Part shown: positions 13,676-30,893 of the stretch, in pieces
How positions within the stretch are numbered: the stretch's first letter is position 1
How the letters are laid out: each line of letters opens with the position of its first letter
Assembly (NCBI GenBank): GCA_017624235.1
Contig: JAGANL010000040.1
Location: 1 to 38,186, forward strand
DNA length: 38,186 nt
Reading direction: 5' to 3'
From: Lachnospiraceae bacterium
GTDB lineage: Bacteria > Bacillota > Clostridia > Lachnospirales > Lachnospiraceae
Made by a program: the position numbers and the translations under genes
The notes under the pieces: model-generated
Databases searched by the model: none
What the model was told of the DNA's origin: nothing
Seen by the model: only the letters and a program-made list of their open reading frames with translations

Positions 13676-13693
13676 GTATTCCATATCGTCCAA

Positions 13694-14071: not shown

Positions 14072-14147
14072 TATAATTTACCTCCATTTAAAATTGTAAT
14101 TGTTTTCAAAACTGTTTCGTAACTGTTGACCACGGTCAACCTGAAAA

Positions 14148-14705
14148 TTATTCTGCTTCTGCAGGAGCTGCTTCCTCTGCCGGTGCTGCTTCTTCTGCTG
14201 CCGGAGCTTCGCATGCGGATGCGCCGCCTTTTTCTGCCAGCTGATTCATAACACGAGCAAAGTTTGTAATCGGAGACTGAATGCTTCCCAGTAACTTGGA
14301 AAGTAATTCTTCTCTGGAAGGGATCTTAGCGATTTCAGCCATTCCTGCTGCATCGTATACAATGCCTTCAACCACACCAGCTTTGATTTCAAGCTGTTTT
14401 GCATCCTTGGCGAACTTAGCCAGTATTCTGGCCGGAGCGGTTGCATCGGTTGTGGAGATTGCAACTGCGCTCGGTCCTTCCAGATACGGAGCAAGTGCTT
14501 CGTAATCTGTTCCCTTGAATGCGAAGTTCATCATTGTGTTCTTGTAAACCTTGTAAGTGATTCCTGCTTCACGAAGCTGCTTACGAAGGTTGGTATCCTG
14601 CTCTACTGTGAGTCCACGGTAGTCAACAAGTACAACTGACTGAGCATCTTTGATATTTGCGGAAATCTCTTCTACGATAGGCTGTTTCAGTTCAACTTTT
14701 GCCAT
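14148..14705 (-). CDS. rplJ: Large ribosomal subunit protein L10
   Basis: L10 anchors L7/L12 dimers to the 50S subunit and, with L12, represses its own mRNA through the L10 leader. I start at ATG 14703-14705 because AAGGAGGT lies eight bases upstream and it gives the conserved MAKVELKQPIVEEI; an in-frame upstream start at 14741 would add 12 residues that are not conserved and lies before the ribosome site. Length is then 185 residues. VVLVDYRGLTVEQ is the typical N-terminal motif. The C terminus is a low-complexity Ala/Glu/Pro tail. Confidence 0.97.
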   Translation of the reverse strand: MAKVELKQPIVEEISANIKDAQSVVLVDYRGLTVEQDTNLRKQLREAGITYKVYKNTMMNFAFKGTDYEALAPYLEGPSAVAISTTDATAPARILAKFAKDAKQLEIKAGVVEGIVYDAAGMAEIAKIPSREELLSKLLGSIQSPITNFARVMNQLAEKGGASACEAPAAEEAAPAEEAAPAEAE

Positions 14706-14794
14706 TATTTTACCTCCTTCTAGATTTTGTCCGGTAACCACTATCGGTCATCATCGCCAGCAGCCACCGCTATTGCCGATCAGGAGTTTAAATC

Positions 14795-14835
14795 AAAAAA
14801 CTCTCTGTCTTCAGGCATTGCCAAAAGACAGAGAG
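14795..14835 (-). terminator. Attenuator-like terminator in the rplJ leader
   Basis: Minus strand stem with CTCTCTGTCTT pairing to AAGACAGAGAG (arms inside 14801-14835), followed by six T (14795-14800). It lies between the L10 leader structure and rplJ, so it can act as a transcription attenuator. It is also the first terminator met by RNA reading through from the Pel operon. Confidence 0.8.
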
Positions 14836-14940
14836 GTAAAGTTCTTATGAAAACTCTTTCTCCTCGGCAGGCGTTTTCTCCTTACGCATCGGCTCTCAGG
14901 ATGAGCACCTCTGCACCTGCTGTCTTCGGCATGGTTTGAA
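14836..14940 (-). ncRNA. L10 leader (ribosomal protein autoregulatory RNA)
   Basis: The minus strand contains, in order, CCGAAGACAGCAGGTGC, an AGAGGTGCTCATCC segment and CCTGCCGAGGAG, the conserved blocks of the Firmicute L10 leader. GCAGG pairs with CCTGC to close the main helix. The element binds L10-L12 and controls rplJ-rplL. It begins a few bases after the predicted start of the rplJ promoter. Confidence 0.88.
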
Positions 14941-14949
14941 ACCTTTGAT

Positions 14950-14978
14950 AGAATACCACAGGAAGAATGCTGTGTCAA
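14950..14978 (-). promoter_or_regulatory. Sigma-A promoter of rplJL overlapping the end of the upstream gene
   Basis: Minus strand TTGACA (14973-14978), 17-base spacer, TATTCT (14950-14955) preceded by TGG, an extended -10. The TGA stop codon of the DUF4832 gene (14975-14977) is contained within the -35 hexamer. Confidence 0.85.
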
Positions 14979-16423
14979 CCCCGTTTTCCATTTTTCACCC
15001 GATCGGCATTTAAAATGTATTTCCGGCCAATACTCTCTGCCTTCATATCCAGATATACCTCCGTCTCACCGCTTTCAGGATTCTCAATGCCGACCGCTAT
15101 GAACGGCATTTCTCTACTTCCCTCCTGCCTCCCTACCTTCATTCTGACCTTCACTTTCTCCGACATGCCCTGACAGAGCTCTGTCAGCCGGATATCCGTT
15201 TCAAAGCGTTCTGCCACCTGACCGTTTCCATCCAATTGATACAAACATACCGGCCATTCAAAATACATGGGCGCTGTTCCATAATTCGTAAGCCGGAAGG
15301 AAACCTCCGCGTATCCGGTCAGCCTGTTATAGCGAATCGAGGCATCCGTAACTCCATAACGATAGCCCAGGTTCCTGCGAATCTCGTCTACCTCCTGTGG
15401 ATATAACAGCTCTTCCTCACAGGCCTGTGGGCATTTGGGCCCGATGAAGGTCATATGGGAAGACTGCAGTAAGGCTTTCGTACGCTCCTTTTCCCCTGAC
15501 AATATTTCCTCCATTGAAATACGGCTGGTAAATTCTCCCCCGACCGGAGCCCGGTTCCAGATTTGCGGACAGGCCGGAAGCGTCAGCGTCTGCTCTGCCT
15601 CATCGTACACTGCACCCTCCTGAATCCAGGTAAGCCATTCTCCGGTATCCTTTTCATATCCGGCCATATCATTATAGACCCCCAGCCCATATTCCCGCAC
15701 GGCTTCAAAGGGTCTTCGCATCAAAAGCTTCGCATGCGGGAAGGCGTCCAGATAGGGAGTAATATACTGCCTGCACACCTGTTCCTCCGGAATCCTCGCC
15801 AGTCCCTCATCATATTTTACATGCCATTCTCCCCAGTGTCCGACACTTCCCAGCTCCACATAGCAAAAAAAGCTGTCCTGTCCATACTCCCTGCCAAGCG
15901 CCTCAATCGCCTTTTTATGGTATGCGATCAACGTCTCATTCCGATAATCCGGCGAATAACCCTTTCCATAGTCCATATCATAAAAGGAGCCATCTCCGGT
16001 CTTTCCATACAGCCAGTCCGGAATGTCCATGTGTGCTTCTTCCGAAGGCCTGTCACAAACAAACCGGAACACCACTTTTTTCCCCATAGCCTTCCACTCT
16101 TCCAGATGGTTTTCTGCATTGATGCCTGCGAAATCATACTGTCCCTCTACAGGCTCCAATTCCCGCCAGGTTACATCCACATAGACAAGTGTATTTTCTC
16201 CTACCGCCTCCGCATAATCTGCGCTGGGCGCAAATCCCATCATTGGATTCTGAAAAGTCTCACCGCTTGTGGAATAGGAATAATTGCAGTGCTCAATCAG
16301 AAGTCCCTCATACAAAGATACAGCACCGGCTACAGCCAGCGCCGTGATACCGGCCTTTATCATAATGTTTTTCACTCCGTAACGCCTCTTTTCTTCTGCA
16401 ATGCCATCTTTCCGGTCAGCCAT
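14975..16423 (-). CDS. DUF4832/DUF4874-type glycosyl-hydrolase-like protein, membrane-anchored
   Basis: Last gene of the Pel-associated operon. About 482 residues: a basic cytoplasmic stretch, one membrane helix (about 22-42), then an extracellular domain that begins TFQNPMMGFAP, the opening typical of DUF4874, and continues as a TIM-barrel-like fold with YVELGSVGHWGEWH, where a Glu could be catalytic. A C-terminal beta domain with NYGTAPMYF resembles the DUF4832 sandwich. The ATG at 16421-16423 overlaps the DUF4956 stop by eight bases; an in-frame TTG at 16438 is possible but less likely. Role unknown; a glycan hydrolase or lyase acting on the exported polymer is inference. Its stop codon lies in the rplJ -35 box and no terminator follows. 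Confidence 0.8.
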   Translation of the reverse strand: MADRKDGIAEEKRRYGVKNIMIKAGITALAVAGAVSLYEGLLIEHCNYSYSTSGETFQNPMMGFAPSADYAEAVGENTLVYVDVTWRELEPVEGQYDFAGINAENHLEEWKAMGKKVVFRFVCDRPSEEAHMDIPDWLYGKTGDGSFYDMDYGKGYSPDYRNETLIAYHKKAIEALGREYGQDSFFCYVELGSVGHWGEWHVKYDEGLARIPEEQVCRQYITPYLDAFPHAKLLMRRPFEAVREYGLGVYNDMAGYEKDTGEWLTWIQEGAVYDEAEQTLTLPACPQIWNRAPVGGEFTSRISMEEILSGEKERTKALLQSSHMTFIGPKCPQACEEELLYPQEVDEIRRNLGYRYGVTDASIRYNRLTGYAEVSFRLTNYGTAPMYFEWPVCLYQLDGNGQVAERFETDIRLTELCQGMSEKVKVRMKVGRQEGSREMPFIAVGIENPESGETEVYLDMKAESIGRKYILNADRVKNGKRG

Positions 16424-17099
16424 GGTATTCCCCGTCAAATTCCAGCAAAGCTACATCCTGAACCTGCTTCATTCCCTTGATTTTCTCCGCAAACACAAGA
16501 TGACTCCTTTTACATTTTAACTGAAGAGTCATCTCCACATTCTCGCCCCTGAAAATCTTAGAGCGGATTCTGTACCTGACCTTATGCAGCATCTTCTCTA
16601 TCTCATCCCCTGTCTCATCGCCCTGATAATGCACGACCATCATATAACCCTGCTGATTTCCTGCACCAAAACCGGACACGGCAATCATTCCGATCATCAC
16701 CACAGCAGCAATGACCACCAATATGTACATGCTGGCTCCCACGGCAATGCCCGTGGTAATGGCCCAGAACATATACATCAGATCCAACGGTTCCTTAATC
16801 GCCGTCCGGTAACGCACAATGGACAGCGCACCTACCATACCGAGTGAGATCACAATATTCGTACTGATCGCCAGAGTGACCATACAGGTCAATACCGTCA
16901 TGCCAATCAGCGTAATGGCATAATTTCTGCTGTAAACCACCCCTCTGTAAAACCTCTTATAGATCTGATAAATCAAAATGCCAAGCAGCAGCGCTGCCAG
17001 AATATCTGCAACAATGGTCAGTATCATTCCGACAGAAATCGCCTGATTATACATTTCTGATTCCAAAATTGATTTTTTTACAACATCCTTTACACTCAT
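16416..17099 (-). CDS. DUF4956 family membrane protein
   Basis: A 227-residue protein with about four membrane helices (near 20-46, 60-85, 100-118, 120-140) and a C-terminal cytoplasmic ferredoxin-like domain. The family signature NIVISLGMVGALSIVRYRTAIK is followed by EPLDLMYMFW. Its function is unknown, but DUF4956 genes often sit beside VTC and CotH genes, as here, suggesting a shared process. The ATG at 17097-17099 has GGAGAG upstream. It follows the VTC gene by 36 bases and overlaps the DUF4832 gene. MgtC-like or polyphosphate-linked transport has been proposed only by analogy. Confidence 0.88.
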   Translation of the reverse strand: MSVKDVVKKSILESEMYNQAISVGMILTIVADILAALLLGILIYQIYKRFYRGVVYSRNYAITLIGMTVLTCMVTLAISTNIVISLGMVGALSIVRYRTAIKEPLDLMYMFWAITTGIAVGASMYILVVIAAVVMIGMIAVSGFGAGNQQGYMMVVHYQGDETGDEIEKMLHKVRYRIRSKIFRGENVEMTLQLKCKRSHLVFAEKIKGMKQVQDVALLEFDGEYHG

Positions 17100-17135
17100 G
17101 CTTCTCTCCTGCTCCTCCCTGCTTCTATATAAACT

Positions 17136-17852
17136 CTATCGGAAAATTCCGGACAGTTCCTTCCTCTTTTCCAGACACATCGTATACTTGGAATATGCCA
17201 CATAGTCACTGTCAGCAGCCGGAAGCAGATCCTTGACCAGCTCCGGCAAATACTCTGTAAACTTTACCTCCATAATCAGTCTGTCAGGTGCCATGAGCTC
17301 TGCCGTCGGCAGCTTTGTATCAAACAAATCCTCCGAAAGCATACCGGCGCGCACCCTCGAATCAAAGGTAATCCGTACATCTCCGTACGGATAAACAAAG
17401 GCTTCCCTTTCATAATCCACAATCACGGCCGGACGCATCTGATGCTCGATCCATTCCCGATAAAAATCCTGACAAAGCCTTTCCGGCCTCTCCCTCAAAA
17501 ATGCCACATCTCCATTCAGGAGCTTTTCTGTCTCTTCCCTGCAAAGTGGAACCGAAACCTTCTGGATATACTGTCCCTCCTTCCGCTTTTGTTCCAATTT
17601 TATCACACTGTCCTGACAGTCATAAATCCGAATCCGGTATTTCTTTCTGGATTCCACACCGGAAAGCTTCTCTGTATAAGCGCTTTCCCATCTGTCATCA
17701 AAATAGAGACTGCGTATCATATACATCCCGCCCGCAGCATGAAAATCCCTCTGCAGGCACATTTCCAGCCGTTTCCCCAGAATCCTCCTTTCTGCCTCAC
17801 TGATATCGAATTTCAGTTCATGCCGAAAGGATGGTGCTTGGTTATTCTTCAT
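17136..17852 (-). CDS. VTC-domain protein (polyphosphate polymerase-like)
   Basis: VTC domains are triphosphate tunnel folds; yeast Vtc4 makes polyphosphate from ATP. In this 238-residue protein the tunnel residues look present: R10/E12/K14, R47, K71-R73-R75 (KYRIRI), K85/E87/K89, R149, D164/R166, the acidic metal ligand E195 with K197, and the SKY motif at 221-223. There is no membrane segment or SPX domain. The start at ATG 17850-17852 has GGAGG six bases upstream and overlaps the CotH stop by 11 bases; the in-frame ATG at 17888 would add 12 unlikely residues. Context suggests a partner of DUF4956 and CotH. Activity is not proven. Confidence 0.87.
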   Translation of the reverse strand: MKNNQAPSFRHELKFDISEAERRILGKRLEMCLQRDFHAAGGMYMIRSLYFDDRWESAYTEKLSGVESRKKYRIRIYDCQDSVIKLEQKRKEGQYIQKVSVPLCREETEKLLNGDVAFLRERPERLCQDFYREWIEHQMRPAVIVDYEREAFVYPYGDVRITFDSRVRAGMLSEDLFDTKLPTAELMAPDRLIMEVKFTEYLPELVKDLLPAADSDYVAYSKYTMCLEKRKELSGIFR

Positions 17853-19653
17853 AAACATCCTCCACAATTCTGCCATCCTCCAAAACAAAGAAACATTTTA
17901 TGCCAAAATTTTTCTCACTTCGGTTCGATACATAATAATCAAAGGCATACTGCTCCTTTCCAGACTCATTTGTGGCTTTTATCCTTACAAAATACTGACC
18001 CGGCTTCAGCTCATCCCGGTAAACATATTCCGGCGTAAAAATCCCTTCTTCTGTCACAAAAGGCTTTTCAAAGGAATAATCATCTGCCAGTTCCAGAGTA
18101 TACCAGACATTTTCCTCCTGAAATTCATAGGCATTGTCCCACTCAAAATGAATGCCGTCCTTTTTCGGCACAGGAGTCCCAATATAAAACGGCATCGGTT
18201 CCTCGAGATTTTCCTGATAAAGCTCATAATTTCGTTCAATCTCTCCCGGCAATTCCTCGAGCATTTGCTGATAGACACGCTTTGTCACAGGCATATGTTC
18301 ACTGTCAGGATACCGGAACGCATATGCTTCGATTACCGGTGCATATTCCGTAATCATGCTTTCCAGCTTTTCCGGTGTAAGACAAGCACGATATTCCTGT
18401 ATTTTTTCATCCAGCTCCGCTCTCAGACTTTTGCTTTTCAAAATCCGCTGAAACAATATATTTCCCCAGTAATTGCTGATTCCCTTTTCCCAGCCGACCT
18501 GCTCTTCTCCCTCATCAAATATCCGCTTGGTATCCGAAAAAGCCACATCATTATCCCAGGAAAGGAAATACCATGTCTTACTGTTTAAAGGACTGTATAA
18601 AAAGGTATTTCTCGACTGTGTATCCACATTTCCTACCAGAATATGAAAGGCCATCCACGAAAAGAGATTCTCCTTTTCAAACCATTCCTCGATGACATCC
18701 TCGATCGGAATCGAATAATCATTCACATCCTCCAGCATGGCAATCAGCTTACTATGGTCATCATTCCCTTTGATTTCCAAAAGCTCTTCAAACGCCTCTT
18801 GCCGATAATCCGCATCACTTTTCAGCATAATAATATCTTCATAACGATAAAATTCAAAAAAATTGACCTTATAAAGCTGTCCATTCTTATCCAGTCCATG
18901 ACTTTGCAGTGCCCGGCCGTTTAGCTGCTCCACCTGGGTATAGAGTCCATAATCCTGAAACCGTCCGTTGCCTCCCCCCGTCATATCCTTGACATAAAGA
19001 TGTACAAACTGTGTCCGAAGCGACATCATATCCGGCAGCTCCGTCATCAGATCAAAGCAGAGCTTATTGGTAAAGCGAACAGGGTCCTGCTGATGCTTAT
19101 TCAAATTGATGACCTTCTGGTCATTCCACGTCCCTTTTTCATCCCGCAGGGCAATCCGGTAATTCTTCTGTTCATAACGTGTTGAGGTCTGTCCACGAAT
19201 CGTCACGGTCGCATTGGGGATTTCCTGTCCATAACCAAGCTCACCTTCCACCGGCCCGTTTTCATCTCCCACCTGGAGCAGGCCGTTCACCGCATATCTT
19301 TCCACGCCCATCTCCTTATAGTCATAGGCCGAATAGCGGTTGACCTCCTCCCAGGTGTGATCCGTATGATCGGATGCATTACCGGGAGTCACGGTCAGAT
19401 ACATCGTCACCACAGAAGCTCTGTCCTGCTTTTCATACAGGCTGTCCTGATCCCGAATTGGAATCGCTTCGTCCACCTGCTTTTCCATCTCCTTCTCTAT
19501 CTTTTGCTCCGACTCTGCCTCGCTTTTTTCCATAGCGGCTGCTTCCTGCTCCCGTCGGCCGCCCGCCGCGCAGCCTGTCATCAGAAAAAGCATTCCCATG
19601 AGAAGCCAGATGCCCGCACTCCTTTTATGCCTCTGAGTTCTTCTCCTATTCAC
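17842..19653 (-). CDS. CotH-family lipoprotein kinase-like protein
   Basis: Bacillus CotH is an atypical kinase that phosphorylates spore-coat proteins. This 603-residue relative has a lipoprotein signal: basic N-terminus, hydrophobic core, then LMTGC with the Cys at residue 28. It is therefore probably anchored outside the membrane, unlike spore CotH. A charged linker (about 35-70) leads to the CotH domain with TVTIRGQTSTRYEQKNYRI, GLYTQVEQLN and WYFLSWDNDVAF, the last holding the metal-binding Asp residues. A C-terminal beta (Fn3-like) domain follows. I choose GTG 19651-19653, which overlaps the pelG stop by eight bases and has AAGGGGG upstream; a longer frame reaches 19734 but overlaps pelG by 89 bases. 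Confidence 0.87.
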   Translation of the reverse strand: MNRRRTQRHKRSAGIWLLMGMLFLMTGCAAGGRREQEAAAMEKSEAESEQKIEKEMEKQVDEAIPIRDQDSLYEKQDRASVVTMYLTVTPGNASDHTDHTWEEVNRYSAYDYKEMGVERYAVNGLLQVGDENGPVEGELGYGQEIPNATVTIRGQTSTRYEQKNYRIALRDEKGTWNDQKVINLNKHQQDPVRFTNKLCFDLMTELPDMMSLRTQFVHLYVKDMTGGGNGRFQDYGLYTQVEQLNGRALQSHGLDKNGQLYKVNFFEFYRYEDIIMLKSDADYRQEAFEELLEIKGNDDHSKLIAMLEDVNDYSIPIEDVIEEWFEKENLFSWMAFHILVGNVDTQSRNTFLYSPLNSKTWYFLSWDNDVAFSDTKRIFDEGEEQVGWEKGISNYWGNILFQRILKSKSLRAELDEKIQEYRACLTPEKLESMITEYAPVIEAYAFRYPDSEHMPVTKRVYQQMLEELPGEIERNYELYQENLEEPMPFYIGTPVPKKDGIHFEWDNAYEFQEENVWYTLELADDYSFEKPFVTEEGIFTPEYVYRDELKPGQYFVRIKATNESGKEQYAFDYYVSNRSEKNFGIKCFFVLEDGRIVEDVYEE

Positions 19654-21148
19654 TCTCCGTTTCCCCCTTTCCATACACTCTGTCAGACTCCCGTGCCGCC
19701 CGCCTTTCATAACGTTTCTGCAGCTTTTCCGCAAGTCCGGTTAAAAAACCACGGTGCACCTCCTGTATCATCGGCTGGCTGCACAGCACATGATACAAAA
19801 GTCCTCTCTGATAGCGATACAGTCCAAGTATAGACACGCCGGCAAATGCAATGGCACCTGCCAAAAAGCCCACACCATAATAGGTCATGCCCGCCCCTTT
19901 TAACATCCAGGTTCCGATACAGCTCACTGCCATAAAGACGGCCGAATCCACCAATGCCCCTGTATTATCTGCAAAATAGAGCTGAATCAGCATCACGCAG
20001 TTTCCGATGGCATAGAACGCATAGCCGATACACAAAACCCGGTAGATTCCCAGCATATCCGCACTCATACCAAGTGGCAGATAGGGCAGCAGGAAGGTGC
20101 CTGCCAAAAGGAAAACAACCGTTCCAAAAAACTGCTTCATGAAGGTATAGGTCAATTCCTGGATCAGAGTGGATTTCATTTCCCGTTCTGCCTGTTCAAT
20201 ATCCCGCAGCGCCCCTCCGTCATTAAACAGGCTGAAATAATTACGGTATTTCGGGTAAAAATTGACCTCTACCGATGTAACGAAATTGATTGTAGTGATC
20301 AAAATCGACAAAAATGCCAAAAGAGCTGGTATATCATACATTGGCGCCCCATAAAACCAGCCCCTGACCTGTACAGCAATCGGACTGGTCCACATAATGA
20401 CAAGATGCCCAAACAGCCCCAGCGAAAGAAAAAGTCCGGTCAGGACAAGCTGAGGATAACGGTCCATCCAGATCAGAAAACAGGACGCACTGCAATTTCC
20501 CTGCGGAAAATATCGAAGCAGCAGCCAATAATAGACGACAGACATTCCTCCATAAGCCAGACACACAGCAAGAAGCAGGGCTGCTACCGGCTCCATGCCT
20601 CCGGCCAGCAAAAGCAGGGCTCCGCCCCAGCCTGTCACAAGCGCTCCGGCAAAGGTCAAAAGAATTCCCCGATAATCCTTAATTGCTGTCAGATAGTTGA
20701 TCTCCGTCCAGACCAGAATCAGCTCTCCAAACAGCGTCAGGCAAAGCAGACCGTATACTGCAGAAATCCCGGAAAAATACAGGAAGATTCCATACAGTCC
20801 TCCTCCTGCCGTCAGCATACAGGATACGCTGCCCCAAAAGGAAGGCAGAATGCGACGGCTTTCTTCCGCATAGATCTGGTCTGCTGTATACCTGGACGTT
20901 ACCATAGCAAAAAGATTGCTCACAGTCAGAGAAATCAGAAGCGTATAGGTAATCATGCTGTTTAAAAGCTCTGTTTCCTGCCTGCCGGCGCCAAAGGCTT
21001 CTGCCAGCAGATGTATTCCCAAAAGAAGCACGATGCCAAGCAGCATCGGACCGGTGCAGACAATCCCTGCATACCCGTAAGCCCGCAGGATAGACAATAG
21101 TCCCTTTTTGGCAAACATCTTTTTCAGTTCAAATCCAATTCCGGCCAT
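19646..21148 (-). CDS. pelG: PelG-like exopolysaccharide flippase/exporter
   Basis: PelG is the multispanning Pel exporter of the polysaccharide flippase (MOP) superfamily. The 500-residue product starts with the family hallmark MAGIGFELKKMF and contains about 12 hydrophobic segments through residue 470. The ATG at 21146-21148 follows directly on the pelF stop codon, so the two are translationally coupled; AGGAGGTGA lies inside the end of pelF. A cytoplasmic basic tail follows the last helix. Pairing with PelF is the defining feature of Pel synthases. Confidence 0.93.
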   Translation of the reverse strand: MAGIGFELKKMFAKKGLLSILRAYGYAGIVCTGPMLLGIVLLLGIHLLAEAFGAGRQETELLNSMITYTLLISLTVSNLFAMVTSRYTADQIYAEESRRILPSFWGSVSCMLTAGGGLYGIFLYFSGISAVYGLLCLTLFGELILVWTEINYLTAIKDYRGILLTFAGALVTGWGGALLLLAGGMEPVAALLLAVCLAYGGMSVVYYWLLLRYFPQGNCSASCFLIWMDRYPQLVLTGLFLSLGLFGHLVIMWTSPIAVQVRGWFYGAPMYDIPALLAFLSILITTINFVTSVEVNFYPKYRNYFSLFNDGGALRDIEQAEREMKSTLIQELTYTFMKQFFGTVVFLLAGTFLLPYLPLGMSADMLGIYRVLCIGYAFYAIGNCVMLIQLYFADNTGALVDSAVFMAVSCIGTWMLKGAGMTYYGVGFLAGAIAFAGVSILGLYRYQRGLLYHVLCSQPMIQEVHRGFLTGLAEKLQKRYERRAARESDRVYGKGETESE

Positions 21149-22552
21149 TTACGAGCTCACCTCCTCATATAGCTTCCGATATTTCTGCATCGATAACACA
21201 TCCGTATAATATTCCTCCACCCTTGCCCTTCCGGCAAGACCCATACGTTCTCTCTCTGCGCTCTTCTGACACAGCTCCAGCATTGCCTGCGCAAGGCGTT
21301 CCTTATTCATAGGCGGTACGCATAGTCCCGCCGGACCAAACTCATCCTTACCATAGATCAGTTCCCTGCAGCATCCGACATCCGTTGCCACACAGGCTCT
21401 TCCCGCTGCGAAGGACTCCAGCACAGACAGAGGCTGTCCCTCCGAAATACTGGTGAGAATCGTAAAATCAATCTTTTCCATATATGGTATAATATCCACC
21501 ACACCCGTAAACACAATATCCGAAATACCAAGTTGTTTTACAAGCAGCCTGCATTCTTCAAAATACTCCGGATCATCCACATCTCCCATAATGTGAAGTC
21601 GGGTGTTCGGCATCTCTGCCTTGACCTCCGCAAAGGCATAGATCATGGTCTTGATATCCTTGATTTTCGCAATACGTACCACAGCTCCGATATCCACCCA
21701 TCCATCCTCCTGCTTTGGGGGTATCCCGGAAAATCGTTCCAGACAGACACCGTTTTCTATGACCCGCTGTTTCTCCGGAGGGCAGCCGATTTCCTGCTGC
21801 ATTTCCCGCGCTCTTTCAAACAGACAGGTCACACGGTCCGCATACTGATAAGCACAGGTCGAAAATACATAGAACAGATCAATCCACTGCTGCCTGAAAA
21901 ACGGAAGCACCCAATCCGCTCGCAGCAGCTCCTCTTCCCGTTCTCTGGTATAAATACCATGTTCCGTCAAAAGGAACGGCCGCTTATTCTTCCATTTCCC
22001 CAGACTGCCCAAAAGACCGCTGTAGCCTGTCGCCGTCGCATGATACAAGTCTGCCTCCGGCACAGGCTGGGTGAGCAGATAAAGCTCCGGCAGCATCATG
22101 GACCGGACCGTATGAAAAAATTCAGAAAAGGAGATATAGGGAAACTTTTCTTTACACAGCCTGATAAACACTCTCAAAAATTCCCGGCTCATCAGCATCG
22201 CCGCAGGATTGACCTGATTTTCCTGAAACAGTTCAAACAGTACCTCCCAGTCCGGGCTCTTTCCCTCAAACAGATCCATAAAGGTATCCTTCTGCTGCCT
22301 TGTCAATTTTAACCGGTTCCGCTCCCTGCGGCTGCTTTTGAGCTTCAAGGCATCGTCCAAAAACACTTCCCGCACTTCCACAACATTTTCCGGCAGTTCA
22401 TACTTATACCTTCCACGGTCTTCCGCTTTTGCACCGATGCACCAGAGCACAAACTTCTGCTCCGGCATCGCCTTGATATACCGATGCATCCAACTGGATA
22501 CACCTCCAAATACATAGGGATAGCTTCCCTCCAAAATCATGCAGATTCTCAC
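21149..22552 (-). CDS. pelF: PelF-like GT4 glycosyltransferase
   Basis: PelF is the cytoplasmic UDP-sugar glycosyltransferase thought to polymerise the Pel backbone. The 467-residue product begins ICMILEGSYPYVFGGVSSW, the DUF3492 signature of PelF, and has the GT-B retaining donor site E371-x7-E379 (SEGQPLSVLESFAAG), R293 with K296, and TEHGIY (196-201). The start is GTG (22550-22552) with GGGGGAA upstream, two bases after the deacetylase stop. It is coupled to pelG. Confidence 0.95.
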   Translation of the reverse strand: MRICMILEGSYPYVFGGVSSWMHRYIKAMPEQKFVLWCIGAKAEDRGRYKYELPENVVEVREVFLDDALKLKSSRRERNRLKLTRQQKDTFMDLFEGKSPDWEVLFELFQENQVNPAAMLMSREFLRVFIRLCKEKFPYISFSEFFHTVRSMMLPELYLLTQPVPEADLYHATATGYSGLLGSLGKWKNKRPFLLTEHGIYTREREEELLRADWVLPFFRQQWIDLFYVFSTCAYQYADRVTCLFERAREMQQEIGCPPEKQRVIENGVCLERFSGIPPKQEDGWVDIGAVVRIAKIKDIKTMIYAFAEVKAEMPNTRLHIMGDVDDPEYFEECRLLVKQLGISDIVFTGVVDIIPYMEKIDFTILTSISEGQPLSVLESFAAGRACVATDVGCCRELIYGKDEFGPAGLCVPPMNKERLAQAMLELCQKSAERERMGLAGRARVEEYYTDVLSMQKYRKLYEEVSS

Positions 22553-22554
22553 TC

Positions 22555-24384
22555 TTATTCCCCCAGATAAATCACAAACTCCTCCTCTTTTGTGTGTACT
22601 GTATACAAGTCTCCCGTTACATGCTCATAGCTGCATCCCCTGGCCCCTGTCACTTTCCCTTCATTGACCCGCATCAGAAATGCCGCATCACCGGAAAATC
22701 CACCCAGCCGGACTCTCATTCCCTCATCCGTTCTCTCCCGTATGATCGAAATCCTGTCATACTGCTGTACCGCCGTACCCATCTCACTGCCCGTCAGATT
22801 CCGAAGCTGCGGTGCCGAATCCGAAATCCAGCGCACATACTCTTCCAGCCCTGCGCTCATTTTTTCCCAGCCCTCTTCCGCGCCCCGGTCCTGATCCAGA
22901 ACATCATCCGGGTGTAAAAAATGCGTCTGCACAAAATGAAAATTCAGCTCGGACAGTGCTGTCAGCTTTTGATAAGCATCTATCCTGCAGCCGGATGTAA
23001 TACGCGGAGTATTGATGATACCATTTTCATCCATGCCAAATTCCTGTTCATATGTCTTCGCTTCAATGTCTTCCAGATAGGTACTGGCAATCACCCGAAT
23101 CTGCGGACAAGCCTCATGCAGCGCCTGCCTTCCGGCCCCTGAAATAATATTGGACGGAGGCACATAGACACAAAAGGAATTGCCGGGAAAAAGCTCTTTT
23201 GAAAAACGTTCCAATTCCTTTAGGGAAGCCTTTATATCTTCTGTCGACGGCCAGAGCTTATACTCTCCATACTGCATGGCATCATCTGTCCCCTGCAGGC
23301 ACAGCGGCATATGATTATAGCCGTGGAATCCCAGTTCCCCTCCATTGTTCAAAATCAGATTTCCAAAGTTTGAAAACTGCGCCGATGCTACATTCTCCGG
23401 GAATGGTGCCCGGACCTGATCCGAATATTCCTCAATGATCAGCGCTGTATGCTTAATCCCATACTTTTCTTCCAGATCCAGTATTTTGGGCAGCCAGATG
23501 CTGGAATAGAAGGTTGCCGTATCCACGCCATAATCCCTGCGCACATAGGTTCCGTCTCCTTCCGGCACCGGAGACGGAAAGTCATCCAGATAAAAGGCCG
23601 ATCCGTCAATGACCGGATAAATGCAGACCTCATCCAGAAGACTGTAGGCCAGACACAAAAATCCGCGCTGATATTTATCGGTAATTACCACATTGATTAC
23701 AGCAACCCTTCCTTTGCCGTAATCCCGCGTCCAGAGCAGCGGAAGCGTCCCATCCTCCGATGCAACCCAGACATGGCTCTCCGGATCGAGCTGCACCTGC
23801 AGGGAAGTGCCAAGTCCCTCTTCCTCTCTGGGCACACATTCAAATACCTCATCATCTGTTGCTCCAATCATACAATGATCCCGAATCTGAAAGCCCCATA
23901 TCTCCGGGTAATCATCGCCCACGTTCTCGATGCCGACTTTCTTCATGACTGCCCCGAAGCCGCCGTCATACCCCGGTGCCACTGCTGTCATCAGCTTTCC
24001 GCCGTCTCTGACCCACTGGAACAGCACAACCAGCTCATCCCCTAAATCTCCCCATTGCTGAAAGGTAAGCACTACCGTTTCATAGCCATCGAGAAGCTCC
24101 CTGGAAATCCCTTCCGCAATATCACGGGAATCATATCGGACTTTCATTCCGTCCAGCACCGCTCCTGTCATCTTTTCAAAAACAGTACTGATCTCATTTT
24201 CTTTTGTCAGAATCAGGCAGGTACTCTCCATCTCAATATCCTCAGAAAAGTCTGCTGCCGCCTGCCATACCGGTTCATTTACATTCTGCCCGGTAATGCC
24301 ATACCGCTCCAACAGCACCATTGCACCGCAGAGCAAAAGAGCAAATACCGGTATCAGCAGCTTTCTGTTCTTTCGATTTCTCAC
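22555..24384 (-). CDS. DUF2194 protein, PelA-type polysaccharide deacetylase
   Basis: A 609-residue extracellular protein with one N-terminal membrane anchor (about 8-25). Residues 50-250 look like a flavodoxin/GATase-like domain (LLDGYETVVLTFQQWG, YGKGRVAVINVV). From 255 a carbohydrate esterase 4-like domain follows: the D267-D268 pair in FYLDDFPSP and the metal histidines H354-GYN-H358, with H488 or H491 as a candidate late catalytic residue. PelA of Pseudomonas deacetylates Pel, making it cationic, and Gram-positive Pel clusters carry a shorter deacetylase version; this gene fills that slot between pelE and pelF. The start is GTG (24382-24384), overlapping the pelE stop in GTGA. No hydrolase domain of the PelA type is visible. 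Confidence 0.85.
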   Translation of the reverse strand: MRNRKNRKLLIPVFALLLCGAMVLLERYGITGQNVNEPVWQAAADFSEDIEMESTCLILTKENEISTVFEKMTGAVLDGMKVRYDSRDIAEGISRELLDGYETVVLTFQQWGDLGDELVVLFQWVRDGGKLMTAVAPGYDGGFGAVMKKVGIENVGDDYPEIWGFQIRDHCMIGATDDEVFECVPREEEGLGTSLQVQLDPESHVWVASEDGTLPLLWTRDYGKGRVAVINVVITDKYQRGFLCLAYSLLDEVCIYPVIDGSAFYLDDFPSPVPEGDGTYVRRDYGVDTATFYSSIWLPKILDLEEKYGIKHTALIIEEYSDQVRAPFPENVASAQFSNFGNLILNNGGELGFHGYNHMPLCLQGTDDAMQYGEYKLWPSTEDIKASLKELERFSKELFPGNSFCVYVPPSNIISGAGRQALHEACPQIRVIASTYLEDIEAKTYEQEFGMDENGIINTPRITSGCRIDAYQKLTALSELNFHFVQTHFLHPDDVLDQDRGAEEGWEKMSAGLEEYVRWISDSAPQLRNLTGSEMGTAVQQYDRISIIRERTDEGMRVRLGGFSGDAAFLMRVNEGKVTGARGCSYEHVTGDLYTVHTKEEEFVIYLGE

Positions 24385-25280
24385 GATACAAACTCCTTCC
24401 GGCTCCAGAACCGGTACCAGTTCTGGCCCTTGACCGTCAGATAGATACCCCGCCTCTTGATCAGGTCCAGTATCTCCTGAATCCTTACACCGTCACCAAT
24501 CTGCCAATAATATCCCACCATGGCCTGATAAACCTGTTCTTCTTCCGGCCACTTCTTCTGCAGCCAGTCAAATTTCTCCTCCAGTCCGTCATACCTTTGC
24601 ATCGCCACCCGGTTTTCCATCCATTGCACCCAGTTTCTCCTGCTGTCCGGTTCCTTTTGACACAGCTTCGTCAGAACAGCATCCAACCTTTCCCGGTAGA
24701 TATTCAAAACACTTCCGGACACCAGCCCGCTGTCTATATATTCCTGCAATACCCGGCGGCTCTTTTGGAGCACTCTCAGATTCTCCGGTTCCCGTTCCAT
24801 TTTTTCAAACAGCTGATGGATCTCCAATTCATACCGGCTCTGTATCTCCATCATCGCCGTTGTTGCATAATGTACCAGCTCTATGTCCTCTGCTGCTCCT
24901 GCCGCCTTTAGCAGATCAATAAATTCTCCCGGATCCTGATACAGAATATCCTTCATCAGCTGTCTGCTGACCTTTGCATCATTTACAGCAATCGCCTCCT
25001 CCAGAGGTACCGTCATATTCCCATGCTTATTTTCATCAAAAGATATTCTCTCATATTTTACATCCTGTATCTTCAGCAGATCGACACCGATATCCTTCCT
25101 TGCGTGTGCATGCCTCCGCTTTTCACTCTCCTCCATTCCAAGCAAAACAAGCCCCCATAACGGCACCATGATGACCGTCGGCAAAAACAGGCTTCCTGTC
25201 TTGATTTTTCCGCAGTACATACCAATTCCCACAACAGCACATATGCTGATATGTGCCACGATGATCCATACCACTGTCAT
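24381..25280 (-). CDS. pelE: PelE-like membrane protein with helical repeats
   Basis: A 299-residue protein with two N-terminal membrane helices (about 3-20 and 29-47) and a soluble, charged, all-helical domain of TPR-like repeats. Sequence similarity to Pseudomonas PelE is weak to my eye; the assignment rests on topology, size and position directly between pelD and the deacetylase. PelE bridges the PelD receptor and the PelF/PelG synthase. The ATG at 25278-25280 follows the pelD stop by three bases, with AAGGGA in the end of pelD. Confidence 0.7.
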   Translation of the reverse strand: MTVVWIIVAHISICAVVGIGMYCGKIKTGSLFLPTVIMVPLWGLVLLGMEESEKRRHAHARKDIGVDLLKIQDVKYERISFDENKHGNMTVPLEEAIAVNDAKVSRQLMKDILYQDPGEFIDLLKAAGAAEDIELVHYATTAMMEIQSRYELEIHQLFEKMEREPENLRVLQKSRRVLQEYIDSGLVSGSVLNIYRERLDAVLTKLCQKEPDSRRNWVQWMENRVAMQRYDGLEEKFDWLQKKWPEEEQVYQAMVGYYWQIGDGVRIQEILDLIKRRGIYLTVKGQNWYRFWSRKEFVS

Positions 25281-25283
25281 ATC

Positions 25284-27389
25284 CTATTCCCTTACCAGTT
25301 CAAATTTCAGCCGCTTGCTGTTTAACCTTTCCTTCACTATATTCCAGTCCTCCTGCCTTGTCTGAGACAGCAGCAGATACAGCTCTCCATCCTCTCCCTG
25401 TCCCAGCACATCATTGCTTCGCACCAGTCCGGCTACCATATTTCCCAACTCCTTCAGGCTCCTGCCATTGGAATGAATCCGCACCAGAATATATTCCAAA
25501 TACTGCTTTTGACGCATCTGACGCTTCACGGCAAGCACCTCCCGGAAGCTGCCGGCATTCAGGATTCTGGTATCCTCCAATACCGGGGTGTTCCTCTCAT
25601 GATAATCCATGGCACGTAGCAGTGAATCCCGGATCAGATCCGTGATAATCCGAAACTTATTGGAAAATTCCATATTCATCTGTCCCGATTCGGCACGAAG
25701 CAGCAGAATCATTCCTACCAATTCTTCATTTCTCAGGATGGGGGTCGCATAAACCGGATAATCTGCAAGTGCCTTCTTATTTTCAAATACCTCATTTGCC
25801 TTCAGCGCCCGCAGCATATCAGGATAATCTGTCATCCTCATAGACCTTTCCAGAAGCCCCCTGCAGTTCTTTGAGCAGATATTCAATCTGGCAAACGTGC
25901 TTTTACAGTCTATGCCGTAAATAGCGACATATGTATTGCCAAGTGTCTCCTCCAGAATACTGACCGCTTCATAAAACACCTGCTCCGGAAGCAGTGCATC
26001 CAGCTTTTTTACGATAGAATACAGTTTCCCGTAGCTGTCACGATAGCCGATGATCTGATGATTAAATTCTGTCTTACCCGCAAGCACTTCCCGGTAAAGC
26101 CTGCTTAAAAATACATATTTATCCTCCAGAATGCCATATTCTTCTCTGGCATATAAGGTTTCATCATCGTGCTTGTCACGTGTATAGCCCGAGATAGACC
26201 CAAGCAGGAAATAGCACGCAAACGGAAGCCAGTTCTGCACATTGTAAAACAGGATCTGCCACGGTGTCTGTGTAATATGGGAAATCACATAACCGATACT
26301 GGAAAGAAGAGCTGCCAGCGCCCCCGCATTCAGTCCATTCATCATTCCCATCATAACGACATAGATGAGTCTGAAATCAATAAAGTTTACCATGACATTA
26401 TCCCGTGTCCACTGATTGAGCAGCTCCGTCACCAGAAACAGGATAATCAGTTCAGCACCTACCCGGAGCTTTTCACTCCATTCCTTTCTTTTTTCTCTCC
26501 TGGTATACAGAAAATGCTGCCTTTTCTTCCTTTCCAACGTCTCTGCAATTACCCCGGATACATGATCCTCCAGCCTCTTTACCGGGTGCCAGCCATATTC
26601 CTTTCTGGGTGCTTCACTCTTACGGCATCTGGGTATACAGTCATAACCATTGCCATATTCTATCTGCAATTTGGGAAGCTGCTTCTGAAACAATTCTCCA
26701 AGCTCCTGAAAGGTATGCGGATTTCCTCCACCGATATGCAGAATGATAAAATCATCCGTCATAGGGTCATCCAGGATACGCACCATCAGCTCTCCCAAAT
26801 CAGCATCGCACAAAAAATCCGTTAAAAAGTCCGCTCCTCCCGGAAAAATAACCTTGCCCTTCTCCAGAGCATCCTTCAGAAACGGCATGCTCTCCTCCTC
26901 CTGACCCGTACGGTACAAATAAGGAACCTTCAAAATTTCCACCGCAATACCGTCCGATTCGGCAGCATGCCGGCAGAGGGACTCACAGGCGTCCTTCAGA
27001 ATCAAATAGCCCCTTTCCTCAATCTGTTCCCTTTCCTTTAAGGGCAGATTGTTGCACATGATATAATAAAAATGCTTCACGCCGTTTTTTCTGCAGTAAT
27101 ACAGCGTGTTCTCCAATCGTTCTAATTCTCCGAACGGCTGCTTGACGCCATCCAGAGTATAAGAAAAATACACTACTGTTTCAAAACAGAAGGCCGCAAA
27201 TACACTGGCAGTCTCATGATCCTCATCCTTTTTCCAATAGGTCAACACATTCTTTCCGCTGAATTTCCGTTTCTCCTTTTCACAGAATACAACACAACGG
27301 TAATCCTTTCCGAATGCCTGAAAGAAGGCATCAGAAACCATCGAAACATTGCCCGTAAACAATACATCCTTTTCTACGCTTCTACTCAT
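25284..27389 (-). CDS. pelD: PelD-like c-di-GMP receptor fused to an SDR-type domain
   Basis: A 701-residue fusion. Residues 1-290 resemble an extended short-chain dehydrogenase/epimerase: VLFTGNVSMVSD is a poor nucleotide loop, Y128-x3-K132 keeps the YxxxK pattern, and ADLGELMVRIL is typical of the C-terminal part. Residues 310-402 hold about four membrane helices. A GAF domain (about 420-590) precedes a degenerate GGDEF domain, in which the active site reads EDGEL (666-670) while the inhibitory-site RSND (657-660) is preserved. In PelD this RxxD binds c-di-GMP and switches on synthesis. I start at ATG 27387-27389, with AAGGAGG five bases upstream; the longer in-frame start at 27443 lies in a terminator loop. 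First gene of the nine-gene operon. Confidence 0.88.
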   Translation of the reverse strand: MSRSVEKDVLFTGNVSMVSDAFFQAFGKDYRCVVFCEKEKRKFSGKNVLTYWKKDEDHETASVFAAFCFETVVYFSYTLDGVKQPFGELERLENTLYYCRKNGVKHFYYIMCNNLPLKEREQIEERGYLILKDACESLCRHAAESDGIAVEILKVPYLYRTGQEEESMPFLKDALEKGKVIFPGGADFLTDFLCDADLGELMVRILDDPMTDDFIILHIGGGNPHTFQELGELFQKQLPKLQIEYGNGYDCIPRCRKSEAPRKEYGWHPVKRLEDHVSGVIAETLERKKRQHFLYTRREKRKEWSEKLRVGAELIILFLVTELLNQWTRDNVMVNFIDFRLIYVVMMGMMNGLNAGALAALLSSIGYVISHITQTPWQILFYNVQNWLPFACYFLLGSISGYTRDKHDDETLYAREEYGILEDKYVFLSRLYREVLAGKTEFNHQIIGYRDSYGKLYSIVKKLDALLPEQVFYEAVSILEETLGNTYVAIYGIDCKSTFARLNICSKNCRGLLERSMRMTDYPDMLRALKANEVFENKKALADYPVYATPILRNEELVGMILLLRAESGQMNMEFSNKFRIITDLIRDSLLRAMDYHERNTPVLEDTRILNAGSFREVLAVKRQMRQKQYLEYILVRIHSNGRSLKELGNMVAGLVRSNDVLGQGEDGELYLLLSQTRQEDWNIVKERLNSKRLKFELVRE

Positions 27390-27418
27390 CTTCCCCTCCT
27401 TAGGTTTTCTATCGTACG

Positions 27419-27455
27419 AAAAAGACAGACTCTGCATAACCATACAAAGTCTGTC
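27419..27455 (-). terminator. Intrinsic terminator in the pelD leader (candidate attenuator)
   Basis: Minus strand stem of 11 pairs (27445-27455 with 27424-27434, one G-U pair), a 10-base loop and five T. It lies downstream of the candidate pelD promoter and 30 bases before pelD, so it would cut off the operon unless anti-terminated. Confidence 0.75.
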
Positions 27456-27458
27456 CCT

Positions 27459-27500
27459 CTATTCATCGCTTTTTGCCCGTTTTAAATCGCTCATTTTCAT
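27459..27500 (-). CDS. Possible 13-residue leader peptide upstream of pelD
   Basis: Reads MKMSDLKRAKSDE and stops at TAG three bases before the first arm of the pelD leader terminator. AAAGGA lies eight bases before its ATG. Too short for statistical support; the placement is what makes it interesting. A ribosome ending on this ORF would sterically block the terminator stem. Confidence 0.4.
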   Translation of the reverse strand: MKMSDLKRAKSDE

Positions 27501-27530
27501 TATATATTTCCTTTACTTTTCATAGTATTT

Positions 27531-27559
27531 ATAATATCATCACCTCTTTTCAGATACAA
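27531..27559 (-). promoter_or_regulatory. Candidate sigma-A promoter of the Pel operon
   Basis: Minus strand TTGTAT (27554-27559), 17-base spacer, TATTAT (27531-27536). It sits in the AT-rich gap between the CapA gene and pelD, with a predicted start near 27524 and a leader of about 135 bases. Confidence 0.6.
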
Positions 27560-27594
27560 TGTTTTCTTGTCGACTAATTATTGCACAATTCCGC

Positions 27595-28929
27595 TTATTT
27601 CGGGCGAATACTGCCATCCTTTTCAATAATCGCGGTATTCGACAGCGTATTCATGTACGCAATCACCCGTTCTGCCTCCCCGCCCATCAAAAGGCTGGTA
27701 TAGCAGTTCTCCTGTCTGGCCGGCAGAAATTGCAGGCTCTCCAGACCATCCGGTGTAATCACAGCCTTTACCATACAGGTATCCAGCGCTCTGGAATTGA
27801 ACCAGAAATTTCCCAGACTATAGATTACCGGTACACCGTCCACATAGCCAACCTCCTGCAGACAATGTGGATGATCTCCAATGATCAGATCGGCTCCTGC
27901 CTCTGCCAGGCCCTTTACCTGTTCCCTCTGCGCCCAATCCAGCTCTGTCGTATTTTCCGTTCCCCAGTGGATATACACCACCACAAAGTCACTCTCTGTC
28001 TTTGCCTGCTCCACAGTCTCATACAGCTTCTGAGGATTCCAGCAGCGGAATACTCCGGGCGCATCCTCGGTCGCCCCTCTGGTATTCGGATGATCCTGTC
28101 TCTCAATCTGTGTTGCACTCACGACCGCGATTTTCAGTCCCTTCGTCATAAGCATCAGCGGCCTGGAAGCCTCCTCCAGATTCCTGCCGGCACCCACATA
28201 GGGAATTCCCGCCTCCGTCAGCGTATCCAATGTGTCCGTCAGGGAAATCTCCCCATAATCAAAGGCATGGTTGTTCGCCAGAGAAACCACATCTACCGAC
28301 AGATCCTTCAAATAGGACACATGGGACGGCTTTGCACGGAAGGTATACTGTTTTCCCTCCGTAGGCATTCCTCTATCCGTATAAGTAAATTCATTGTTCA
28401 GCATAAAAACATTTGCCGCATCCATCTCTGCCAGCAGCTCTGCGGAAAAGCATTCCGCAATATCTCCCCCGCGCTGCTTTAGGCGCACCATCGGACTGTA
28501 GCTGTCATCAAACAGGATATCTCCGGCAAATGTGACGGTCACACGCTCCGGGTTCTCTGCCAGCACCTCCACCGCATGGATTTCCTGCATCGCCGCAGCG
28601 TCCTTCAGAATGGCCCCATAGCGGCCCTCCTCTTCCTTTGCAGCTTCACGGGCAGCCATCTCCGCTTCATAATACTGCCCCGTATCTCCTTCAATGCGGG
28701 TCAATATACCACCCGCGGGTTCAGAGGCATGTTCCTCCATACTCTCCCGCTCTGTCTCTGCATAGGCAGGTATGGTAGTCCCGTTTAGCAGCACTATGCC
28801 ACCCAGAGTCAACAGCCCCAGTACCGTTACGCAGACAAACACCGTCAGAAAAATGACACCTGCACGCTGTCTTCTATGTCTTCTTCTCTTTTCTGTTACA
28901 TTCGGATTTTTTCTGCTCGCTCCTGCCAA
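27595..28929 (-). CDS. CapA-family (DUF metallophosphatase-fold) surface protein
   Basis: A 444-residue protein with a basic N-terminus, one membrane helix (about 24-48) and an extracellular CapA/PgsA domain of the calcineurin-like metallophosphoesterase superfamily. Visible motifs: FAGDILFDD, NNEFTYTDRG, SLANNHAFDYG, YIHWGTE and IIGDHPHCLQ, the latter with the metal-binding His pair. Such proteins act in poly-gamma-glutamate or other surface-polymer export, but none of the poly-glutamate ligase genes is present, so that role is not supported here. I choose TTG 28927-28929 with AGGAGAGG upstream; the frame extends to a TTG at 29013 inside the rplA terminator tail, which is unlikely. Probably transcribed separately from the Pel operon. 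Confidence 0.8.
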   Translation of the reverse strand: MAGASRKNPNVTEKRRRHRRQRAGVIFLTVFVCVTVLGLLTLGGIVLLNGTTIPAYAETERESMEEHASEPAGGILTRIEGDTGQYYEAEMAAREAAKEEEGRYGAILKDAAAMQEIHAVEVLAENPERVTVTFAGDILFDDSYSPMVRLKQRGGDIAECFSAELLAEMDAANVFMLNNEFTYTDRGMPTEGKQYTFRAKPSHVSYLKDLSVDVVSLANNHAFDYGEISLTDTLDTLTEAGIPYVGAGRNLEEASRPLMLMTKGLKIAVVSATQIERQDHPNTRGATEDAPGVFRCWNPQKLYETVEQAKTESDFVVVYIHWGTENTTELDWAQREQVKGLAEAGADLIIGDHPHCLQEVGYVDGVPVIYSLGNFWFNSRALDTCMVKAVITPDGLESLQFLPARQENCYTSLLMGGEAERVIAYMNTLSNTAIIEKDGSIRPK

Positions 28930-28963
28930 GTTACCTCTCCTGTTCCATCCATCATTCTTCCAA

Positions 28964-29005
28964 ATACCATACTTTACAATAATATACTTTATGATACCAT
29001 ACTTT
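28964..29005. repeat. Pair of 12-bp direct repeats upstream of the CapA gene
   Basis: ATACCATACTTT occurs at 28964-28975 and 28994-29005, exactly 30 bases apart (about three helical turns). A partial copy ATATACTTT lies between them. This looks like a protein-binding site or a degraded repeat between the rplA terminator and the CapA start. On the minus strand one copy contains TGGTATCAT, an extended -10-like sequence with a poor -35. Confidence 0.6.
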
Positions 29006-29011
29006 CCGTAC

Positions 29012-29041
29012 AAAAAAAAGACTGCCGCCGAAGCGACAGTC
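29012..29041 (-). terminator. Intrinsic terminator of rplKA
   Basis: Minus strand 9-pair GC-rich stem (29033-29041 with 29020-29028) capped by a TTCG tetraloop and followed by eight T. It starts 18 bases past the rplA stop, separating the ribosomal operon from the inserted exopolysaccharide region. Confidence 0.93.
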
Positions 29042-29059
29042 TCTATTTTATACGTGGAT

Positions 29060-29752
29060 TTATGCGAATTTTGCTACGCTAACCTTCACACCAGGTCCCA
29101 TGGTAGAGGTTAAAGTAACGCTCTTTAAATACTGACCCTTTAAGGTAGACGGTTTAGCCTTTACGATAGCATCCATCAGTGCATTAAAGTTCTCCTGCAG
29201 CTGTTCCTCGGTAAAGGAAGCCTTTCCAACCGGAACGTGAATGATATTGCTCTTATCAAGTCTGTACTCAATCTTACCAGCCTTGATATCATTAACAGCC
29301 TTTGTAACGTCCATTGTAACGGTACCGGCCTTCGGGTTCGGCATTAAACCTTTCGGTCCAAGTACCTTACCAAGACGTCCTACAACGCCCATCATATCCG
29401 GTGTTGCTACTACAACATCGAAATCAAGCCATCCGTCATTCTGGATCTTCGGGATGAGTTCTTCGCCGCCTACGAAATCAGCTCCTGCTGCCTCTGCCTC
29501 GTTTACCTTATCTCCCTTGGCAAAAACAAGCACCTTAACAGTCTTACCTGTTCCGTTCGGCAGTACAACTGCTCCACGGATCTGCTGGTCAGCGTGACGT
29601 CCGTCACAGCCTGTTCTGATGTGAACTTCGATTGTCTCGTCAAATTTAGCAGTTGCAGTCTTCTTAGCCAGTGCAATTGCATCGTTTGCTTCATAGAATA
29701 CTGCACGATCTACTAATTTGGCAGCTTCATTATATTTTTTACCATGTTTCAT
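29060..29752 (-). CDS. rplA: Large ribosomal subunit protein L1
   Basis: L1 binds 23S rRNA at the mobile stalk by the E site. From ATG 29750-29752 (AGGAGG seven bases upstream) the protein has 230 residues, the family norm, and starts [32 protein letters not shown], the L1 signature, is intact. An in-frame upstream ATG at 29785 adds 11 unconserved residues. Last gene of rpmG-secE-nusG-rplK-rplA; it is followed by a strong terminator and then foreign context instead of rplJ. Confidence 0.98.
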
Positions 29753-29833
29753 TGTTAATCCTCCTATGGTGCATACGGCAGCCATCCGTTACCCGGACTA
29801 CGGCTGTCTCCCACTCTCTGATTTACTTGTTAA

Positions 29834-30259: not shown

Positions 30260-30281
30260 TTTCGGCACCTCCTGAATATAT

Positions 30282-30337
30282 TGTGGTATAACGGGATAGG
30301 TTTCCCTTCCACAGTTCGAACGGATTGCTCCGCGAAC
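30282..30337 (-). promoter_or_regulatory. Paired hairpins in the rplK leader, candidate r-protein operator
   Basis: Two adjacent stems lie just before the rplK ribosome site. TGTGG/CCACA (30282-30286, 30309-30313) encloses a GGGA/TCCC stem with an asymmetric internal loop. Next to it, GTTCG/CGAAC (30314-30318, 30333-30337) stacks on CGGA/TCCG. L1 represses the L11-L1 operon at this position in other bacteria; the identity of the binder here is inference. Confidence 0.45.
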
Positions 30338-30877: not shown

Positions 30878-30893
30878 ACAATCACCCTCACTC

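Follow-up and report, generated by a model that had tools for sequence, protein, structure and literature searches.

Pel exopolysaccharide clusters of Gram-positive bacteria have been described with the arrangement pelDEADAFG, accompanied by genes for CotH, a polyphosphate polymerase, DUF4956, and DUF4832, and an extra epimerase domain in PelD has been reported for clostridia (PMC7112168). For cellulose, a clostridial synthase system is known as ccsZABHI (PMC7710045). Insertions of a few genes between the concatenated operons of the secE-rpoBC-str cluster, with the operons left intact, are known from Gammaproteobacteria and Bacilli (PMC8046335), and the rplJL leader of Bacillus subtilis is a transcription attenuator controlled by L10 (PMC4538822). 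We analyzed the junction between rplA and rplJ in a contig of 38,186 nucleotides from a Lachnospiraceae bacterium (JAGANL010000040.1), hereafter the window. The window is the entire contig C45 of a draft genome (2.3 Mb, 51 contigs, 80% complete) and contains no N; its nearest named rplA matches belong to Lachnospiraceae, mostly uncultured, with identities of up to 93%. An initial annotation had interpreted the junction as one 14-kb Pel-type insertion into one of the most stable gene orders in bacteria. We consider it likely that the junction is instead a permissive inter-operon slot in Lachnospiraceae, in which a PGA_cap gene came first and the Pel cluster later, and in which the polymer operon differs between sister species.

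All features of the junction lie on the minus strand. The final gene of the secE-nusG-rplKA unit, rplA (29060..29785, PF00687 match at 29093-29665), is directly followed by a terminator-like hairpin (29017..29044) and then by ten genes of one orientation, according to the sequence and the open reading frames (ORFs) of the window. A CapA-like PGA_cap gene (27595..28929, PF09587, 5.8e-66) is separated by a second terminator-like hairpin (27421..27457) from nine genes that overlap or stand at most 36 bp apart. The stop codon of the last of these, TGA 14977-14975, overlaps the -35 box (TTGACA, 14978-14973) of a promoter-like sequence TTGACA-17-TATTCT (14950..14978), which precedes an L10 leader (RF00557, 14785..14947, 59.5 bits with a gathering threshold of 44) and rplJ (14148..14705, PF00466 match at 14406-14693, start codon ATG 14705), the opening gene of the rplJL-rpoBC unit. 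The end of rplA at 29060 with a hairpin of its own, the rplJ start, the ten co-oriented genes, and a promoter-like sequence belonging to rplJ had all been recognized correctly by the initial annotation, which counted ten polymer genes at 14975..29013. Nine of them are assigned to the Pel cluster below; the tenth, PGA_cap, is separate and older, and its start at 29013 is unlikely because this TTG sits inside the T-run of the terminator. The TTG at 28929 behind AGGAGAGG is the likelier start. Similarly, ATG 27389 behind AAGGAGGGG is the more likely start of pelD, because the alternative at 27443 lies within the second hairpin.

The genes at 14975-27389 constitute, by their predicted products, a complete Gram-positive Pel cluster that follows the published clostridial layout gene for gene, with the same nine gene types (PMC7112168). 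Along the strand, pelD (25284..27389) is followed by a pelE-like membrane protein gene (24381..25280), a pelA-type deacetylase gene (DUF2194, 22555..24384, PF09960, 1.6e-168), pelF (21149..22552), and pelG (19646..21148), and then by the full clostridial accessory set, encoding a CotH-like kinase (17842..19734, PF08757, 1.7e-64), a VTC-type polyphosphate polymerase (17136..17888, PF09359, 3.4e-36), a DUF4956 membrane protein (16416..17099, PF16316, 7.5e-13), and a DUF4832 protein (14975..16438, PF16116, 1.3e-15). The Pel-type assignment of the initial annotation was borne out by the PelF glycosyltransferase (NF038011, 349.8 bits, cut-off 100) and the PelG exporter (PF16933, 430.9 bits, cut-off 29), whose genes adjoin with abutting ends. 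A profile built from five DUF2194 proteins matched 9ZAU, the PelADA of Bacillus cereus, with an E-value of 2.1e-86. The PelE candidate fits in its position, its membrane segments, and its Pel-linked homologues, and matched no family model.

PelD combines epimerase-like, membrane, GAF, and degenerate GGDEF parts, and thereby resembles the published PelD both in its epimerase domain and in its retained RxxD motif (PMC7112168). This motif (residues 657-660; R657, D660) was invariant in five of five homologue sequences. The predicted structure of the C-terminal part (residues 430-701) had a pLDDT of 84, and Foldseek placed Pseudomonas aeruginosa PelD at ranks 1, 2, and 5-8, albeit with low TM-scores (0.34-0.40). 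A second structural aligner favored general GAF folds, covering mainly the GAF part, with PelD at ranks 42 and 48. Confidence in the full-length model was low (pLDDT 67); the 50 fold-search matches listed for it fall on the epimerase part. Control by cyclic di-GMP (c-di-GMP), proposed earlier for this region, is plausible given the motif and the Foldseek result, and the gene content suggests that the cluster would direct Pel synthesis. Rfam matches upstream of pelD, where a riboswitch was looked for, were at chance level only.

The feature that distinguishes the window from the published clusters is the address between rplA and rplJ (PMC7112168). PelG is patchy in the family, being carried by 30 of 150 genomes, and its position here is derived, as the initial annotation had supposed. 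In 27 further genomes, both PelG and rplJ were located; the two never adjoined, PelG being found on the same contig more than 0.5 Mb away (5 genomes) or on a different contig (22 genomes). When genome contigs were scanned with PelG, the 16 pattern matches obtained included no relative.

Sequence comparison resolves the 14 kb into two layers, an old PGA_cap gene (27595-28929), which appears to be the ancestral resident of the slot, and a later Pel cluster (14975-27389). In a tree of the rplK, rplA, and rplJ proteins calculated with FastTree, the window fell in a clade of 33 tips (support 0.934), and PGA_cap stood behind rplA in all 28 of them for which this could be determined. IQ-TREE recovered a well-supported larger group of 52 tips (support 92), in which PGA_cap occupied this place in 34 of 44 determinable tips, with one genome counted twice and one tip having PGA_cap without a located rplJ. 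Across 150 genera, the 16 strongest PGA_cap matches include 15 that share the strand of rplA and follow it at a distance of no more than 7.6 kb; the exception, in G111, is located elsewhere. PGA_cap requires 6 changes on the tree, compared with a mean of 31 for shuffled states, and some relatives carry PGA_cap alone at the junction. The published Pel gene set, as presented in the passages compared, does not include PGA_cap (PMC7112168). A single 14-kb insertion was rejected, PGA_cap being older than the Pel cluster at this site. In the window lineage, PGA_cap would have entered the slot first, and a complete Pel operon, probably c-di-GMP-responsive, would then have come between PGA_cap and the rplJ promoter.

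The view that rplA-rplJ is among the most stable junctions fails in Lachnospiraceae. In a set of 150 genera, rplJ was located in 140, rplA in 141, and both genes on one contig in 115, a count that leaves aside three genomes with rplA fragments only at contig ends, second fragments in two others, and 21 genomes with the genes on different contigs. This comparison of gene order, which the initial annotation had proposed, showed an uninterrupted junction with a gap below 700 bp in 83 of the 115 genera and a gap of 0.8-15 kb in 32, the window genome included. An interrupted junction is common in the family, which goes halfway toward the finding that the annotation had named as refuting its reading; Pel clusters, however, are not common there. 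Of 61 named loci that were chosen by rplA similarity and have a located rplJ, 28 were interrupted. Elsewhere in the order, one junction was interrupted and 17 were short among the 18 other families with rplA and rplJ near each other on one contig; in G171, from a family of the same order, the two genes lie 2.6 Mb apart in a single-contig complete genome. As controls, we counted interruptions in a pooled locus set, selected in part for its large gaps: none was found at nusG-rplK (0/120), rplK-rplA (0/181), rplJ-rplL (0/163), or rpoB-rpoC (0/35). The pooled set holds three genomes twice (L080/L152, L024/L078, and L076/L168), and the one-per-genus set is the cleaner of the two.

Apart from PGA_cap, the genes carried between rplA and rplJ (the cargo) are little shared among genera, the largest other cluster comprising five ABC-type proteins. 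A domain scan covered 50 hand-chosen proteins of 266, including those of the sister genome described below, and cargo examples include transporters, kinases, hydrolases, a NACHT protein, LRR proteins, and flagellin. The interrupted and empty states require 28 or more tree changes, compared with a shuffled mean of 50, and are therefore partly inherited and partly recurrent; five loci without a leader motif and two without an ORF of at least 120 aa stand outside these tree-change and last-cargo counts. Individual inserts have features of their own. The one in L009 carries, at 4795-8682, a gene whose product has NNH7, a NACHT N-terminal helical domain of a type known from immune-like proteins, and a PreQ1 riboswitch (L013, 3130-3174) and a Clostridiales-1 RNA (L008, 9318-9433) both lie inside junction inserts.

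The L10 leader stays beside rplJ when cargo is present: it reaches the Rfam threshold in the window and in 32 of the 33 interrupted loci that were scanned, as it does in nine of nine uninterrupted loci. A promoter-like sequence scoring at least 9 of 12 precedes the leader in 79 of 90 uninterrupted and 55 of 56 interrupted loci, not counting 14 uninterrupted and six interrupted loci without a leader motif. On the rplA side, with 69 of the 83 short-junction genera fetched for signal scans, a terminator-like hairpin within 150 nt after rplA was found in two of 69 uninterrupted and 21 of 31 interrupted junctions (11/20 with other cargo, 10/11 with PGA_cap) in the one-per-genus set; the pooled values were 4/104 for uninterrupted loci, 18/29 for other cargo, and 27/33 for PGA_cap. 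The loci in these terminator and promoter counts are not independent. Shuffled sequences yielded a terminator-like hairpin in about one of 182 cases. No such hairpins were found after nusG, rplK, or rplJ; after rplL, the other interrupted border, they occurred in 63 of 99 cases. We dropped the idea that terminators on either side had insulated the slot before any cargo arrived, since uninterrupted junctions mostly lack a terminator after rplA. The terminator that ends the rplKA transcript would come with the cargo or after it.

Cargo ORFs of at least 120 aa were mostly co-oriented with the flanking genes (75 of 96, one-per-genus set), and a terminator between a co-oriented last cargo gene and rplJ was found in only one of 18 loci (one of 45 in the pooled set). 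Cargo transcripts may thus run on toward the L10 leader. The leader of the window belongs to the same family, RF00557, as that of B. subtilis, next to which it differs in lying downstream of cargo without a terminator, so that it may receive read-through (PMC4538822). The relevance of growth-rate-controlled promoters next to the polymer genes, suggested initially, found no support, as the cargo is parted from rplKA by a terminator-like hairpin and, at its other end, stands upstream of the rplJ promoter.

The sister species provides the closest comparison. Our search for relatives returned a single further genome of the genus, G150, which has 12.2 kb at the same junction, in the order rplA, PGA_cap, VTC, DUF4956, CotH, MBOAT, AlgX-type protein, metallo-beta-lactamase-fold protein, GT2-PilZ synthase, GH5 enzyme, and rplJ. 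Blastn matched the window to G150 at 86-11036, 13553-14961, 27628-28590, 29013-35964, and 37331-37768 (window coordinates); a stretch of about 2.5 kb inside rpoB (11037-13552), for which the G150 counterpart was not fetched, stands outside this comparison. One large block, 14962-27627, between PGA_cap and rplJ, is unmatched in G150. The PGA_cap proteins of the two species share 66-68% identity. Between the two genomes, PelG was found only in the window genome (G000) and a CcsA-like synthase only in G150. This synthase has GT2 and PilZ domains, with motifs typical of cellulose synthases and of PilZ, respectively; its match to TIGR03030 was below the cut-off (384.1 against 699.1). The GT2-PilZ synthase, GH5 enzyme, MBOAT, and AlgX/DHHW-type protein, which occur together in the G150 cargo, resemble ccsZABHI; the preceding VTC, DUF4956, and CotH genes and the metallo-beta-lactamase-fold protein set the cargo apart (PMC7710045). 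CcsB was not recognized among the nine G150 junction proteins, examined without a CcsB-specific model. A GT2 gene of the window at 35965-37338, adjoining a UDP-galactopyranose mutase gene, also has no match in the colinear G150 stretch.

Identity between the gene types that both polymer operons share is low. VTC and DUF4956 of the window and G150 are 35% and 37% identical, respectively; among six other Pel clusters having these genes, identity to the window was 47-63% in five and 34-38% in the sixth (L195). In both species, a hairpin with the same stem core stands between PGA_cap and the polymer operon. Its exact pattern was found in one of 150 family genomes, the window's own, G150 being outside that draw. 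In the window, the distance from the end of this hairpin to pelD is about 30 bp, too short to hold a promoter, and attenuation of the Pel operon is therefore possible.

These parts belong to known kinds, namely a predicted Pel cluster, a Ccs-like operon, and an inter-operon insertion. Like the insertions described for the secE-rpoBC-str cluster, this one lies at a junction that is uninterrupted in relatives, with both operons intact; recurrence at one border in Lachnospiraceae, the link with a terminator after rplA, and the swap between sister species were found only here, in a comparison with passages of that paper exclusive of its supplementary event tables (PMC8046335). Among titles and abstract openings of the open-licence literature, we found no report of an rplA-rplJ slot, of the terminator pattern, or of a Pel/cellulose swap.

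We infer that the border between nusG-rplKA and rplJL-rpoBC owes its permissiveness to the promoter and L10 leader that rplJ itself possesses. The Pel/cellulose difference most likely arose by recombination in the conserved genes on either side, whether one polymer operon took the place of the other or both came to fill the same gap; such recombination is the simplest idea for it. The main rival, which we regard as a serious though not the favored possibility, is that each species filled the PGA_cap-rplJ gap separately without any exchange of operons. The edges of the two operons are close, yet their shared gene types are only 35-37% identical and stand in a different order, and relatives with PGA_cap alone offer a suitable starting state. 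Conversely, two polymer operons in one gap of one genus, behind related hairpins, would be a large coincidence if the events were unrelated.

Several observations weigh against the permissive slot and the order of events that we favor. The tree was calculated from three ribosomal proteins, and its inner support is modest (0.934 for 33 tips in FastTree; in IQ-TREE, 92 for 52 tips and 38 for 27 tips). Interruptions of at least 0.7 kb were also found at rplL-rpoB in 12 of 46 loci (L071, L079, L084, L086, L087, L089, L094, L098, and four more), so what is special may hold for any operon border. The terminator comparison is weakened by the shortness of uninterrupted junctions, in which a hairpin has little space. 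Both genomes of the genus are drafts (80% and 88% complete), and the operon missed in each could sit in an unassembled part; the single other genome, moreover, gives neither a direction nor an age for the difference. The shared hairpin allows either a polymer operon already present in the ancestor or a hairpin that merely ends PGA_cap. Finally, there is no close donor, the best PelG elsewhere among 397 genomes being 61% identical. As a separate observation, a GT2 glycosyltransferase gene at 4849-5826, kept in the sister species with 90% identity, lies between rpoC and rpsL, and this border is hence interrupted, too.

A bolder extension of the permissive slot, which we hold to be unlikely, would make the PGA_cap-rplJ gap an exchange locus, where species of the genus trade c-di-GMP-gated operons (Pel, cellulose, and perhaps others) by recombination in the ribosomal flanks. 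The shared hairpin would act as an attenuator, and the operons, having no terminator of their own, would send transcripts into the L10-controlled leader, tying the matrix to ribosome status. Still more doubtful is an adaptive placement of Pel, by which its expression follows the synthesis of ribosomes and RNA polymerase. The prevailing co-orientation of the cargo and the scarcity of terminators before rplJ would suit such coupling, but the cargo is functionally unrelated across genera, the hairpin parts it from rplKA, and Pel lies elsewhere in other genomes. Delivery of the Pel block as a genomic island by a site-specific recombinase seems very improbable. The patchy distribution of Pel would agree with it, but none of the ten genes encodes a recombinase, the window lacks a tRNA, and the 20 of 23 direct-repeat families listed include no repeat joining the two edges; the other cargo at the junction is unrelated. 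An island or transposon, which would bring a recombinase, a tRNA site, or a target duplication, was rejected as unsupported. A false join of two contigs, to which any contig of a draft genome is open, can practically be dismissed, because the colinearity between G150 and the window extends to either side of the junction, where G150 has cargo of its own, and PGA_cap occurs there in many independent assemblies.

Outside the junction, the window carries at 31401-32924 a plus-strand gene of 507 aa, divergent to nusG, with a weak FliD C-terminal match and 66% identity in the sister species.

With these results, a textbook example of stable gene order becomes a place where insertions can be counted and dated. 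The signals of tolerance are the promoter and leader that belong to rplJ, and the signal gained with cargo is the terminator after rplA. A difference between Pel and cellulose within one genus would open the switching of matrix polymers in gut bacteria to a direct test through the sequencing of further strains.

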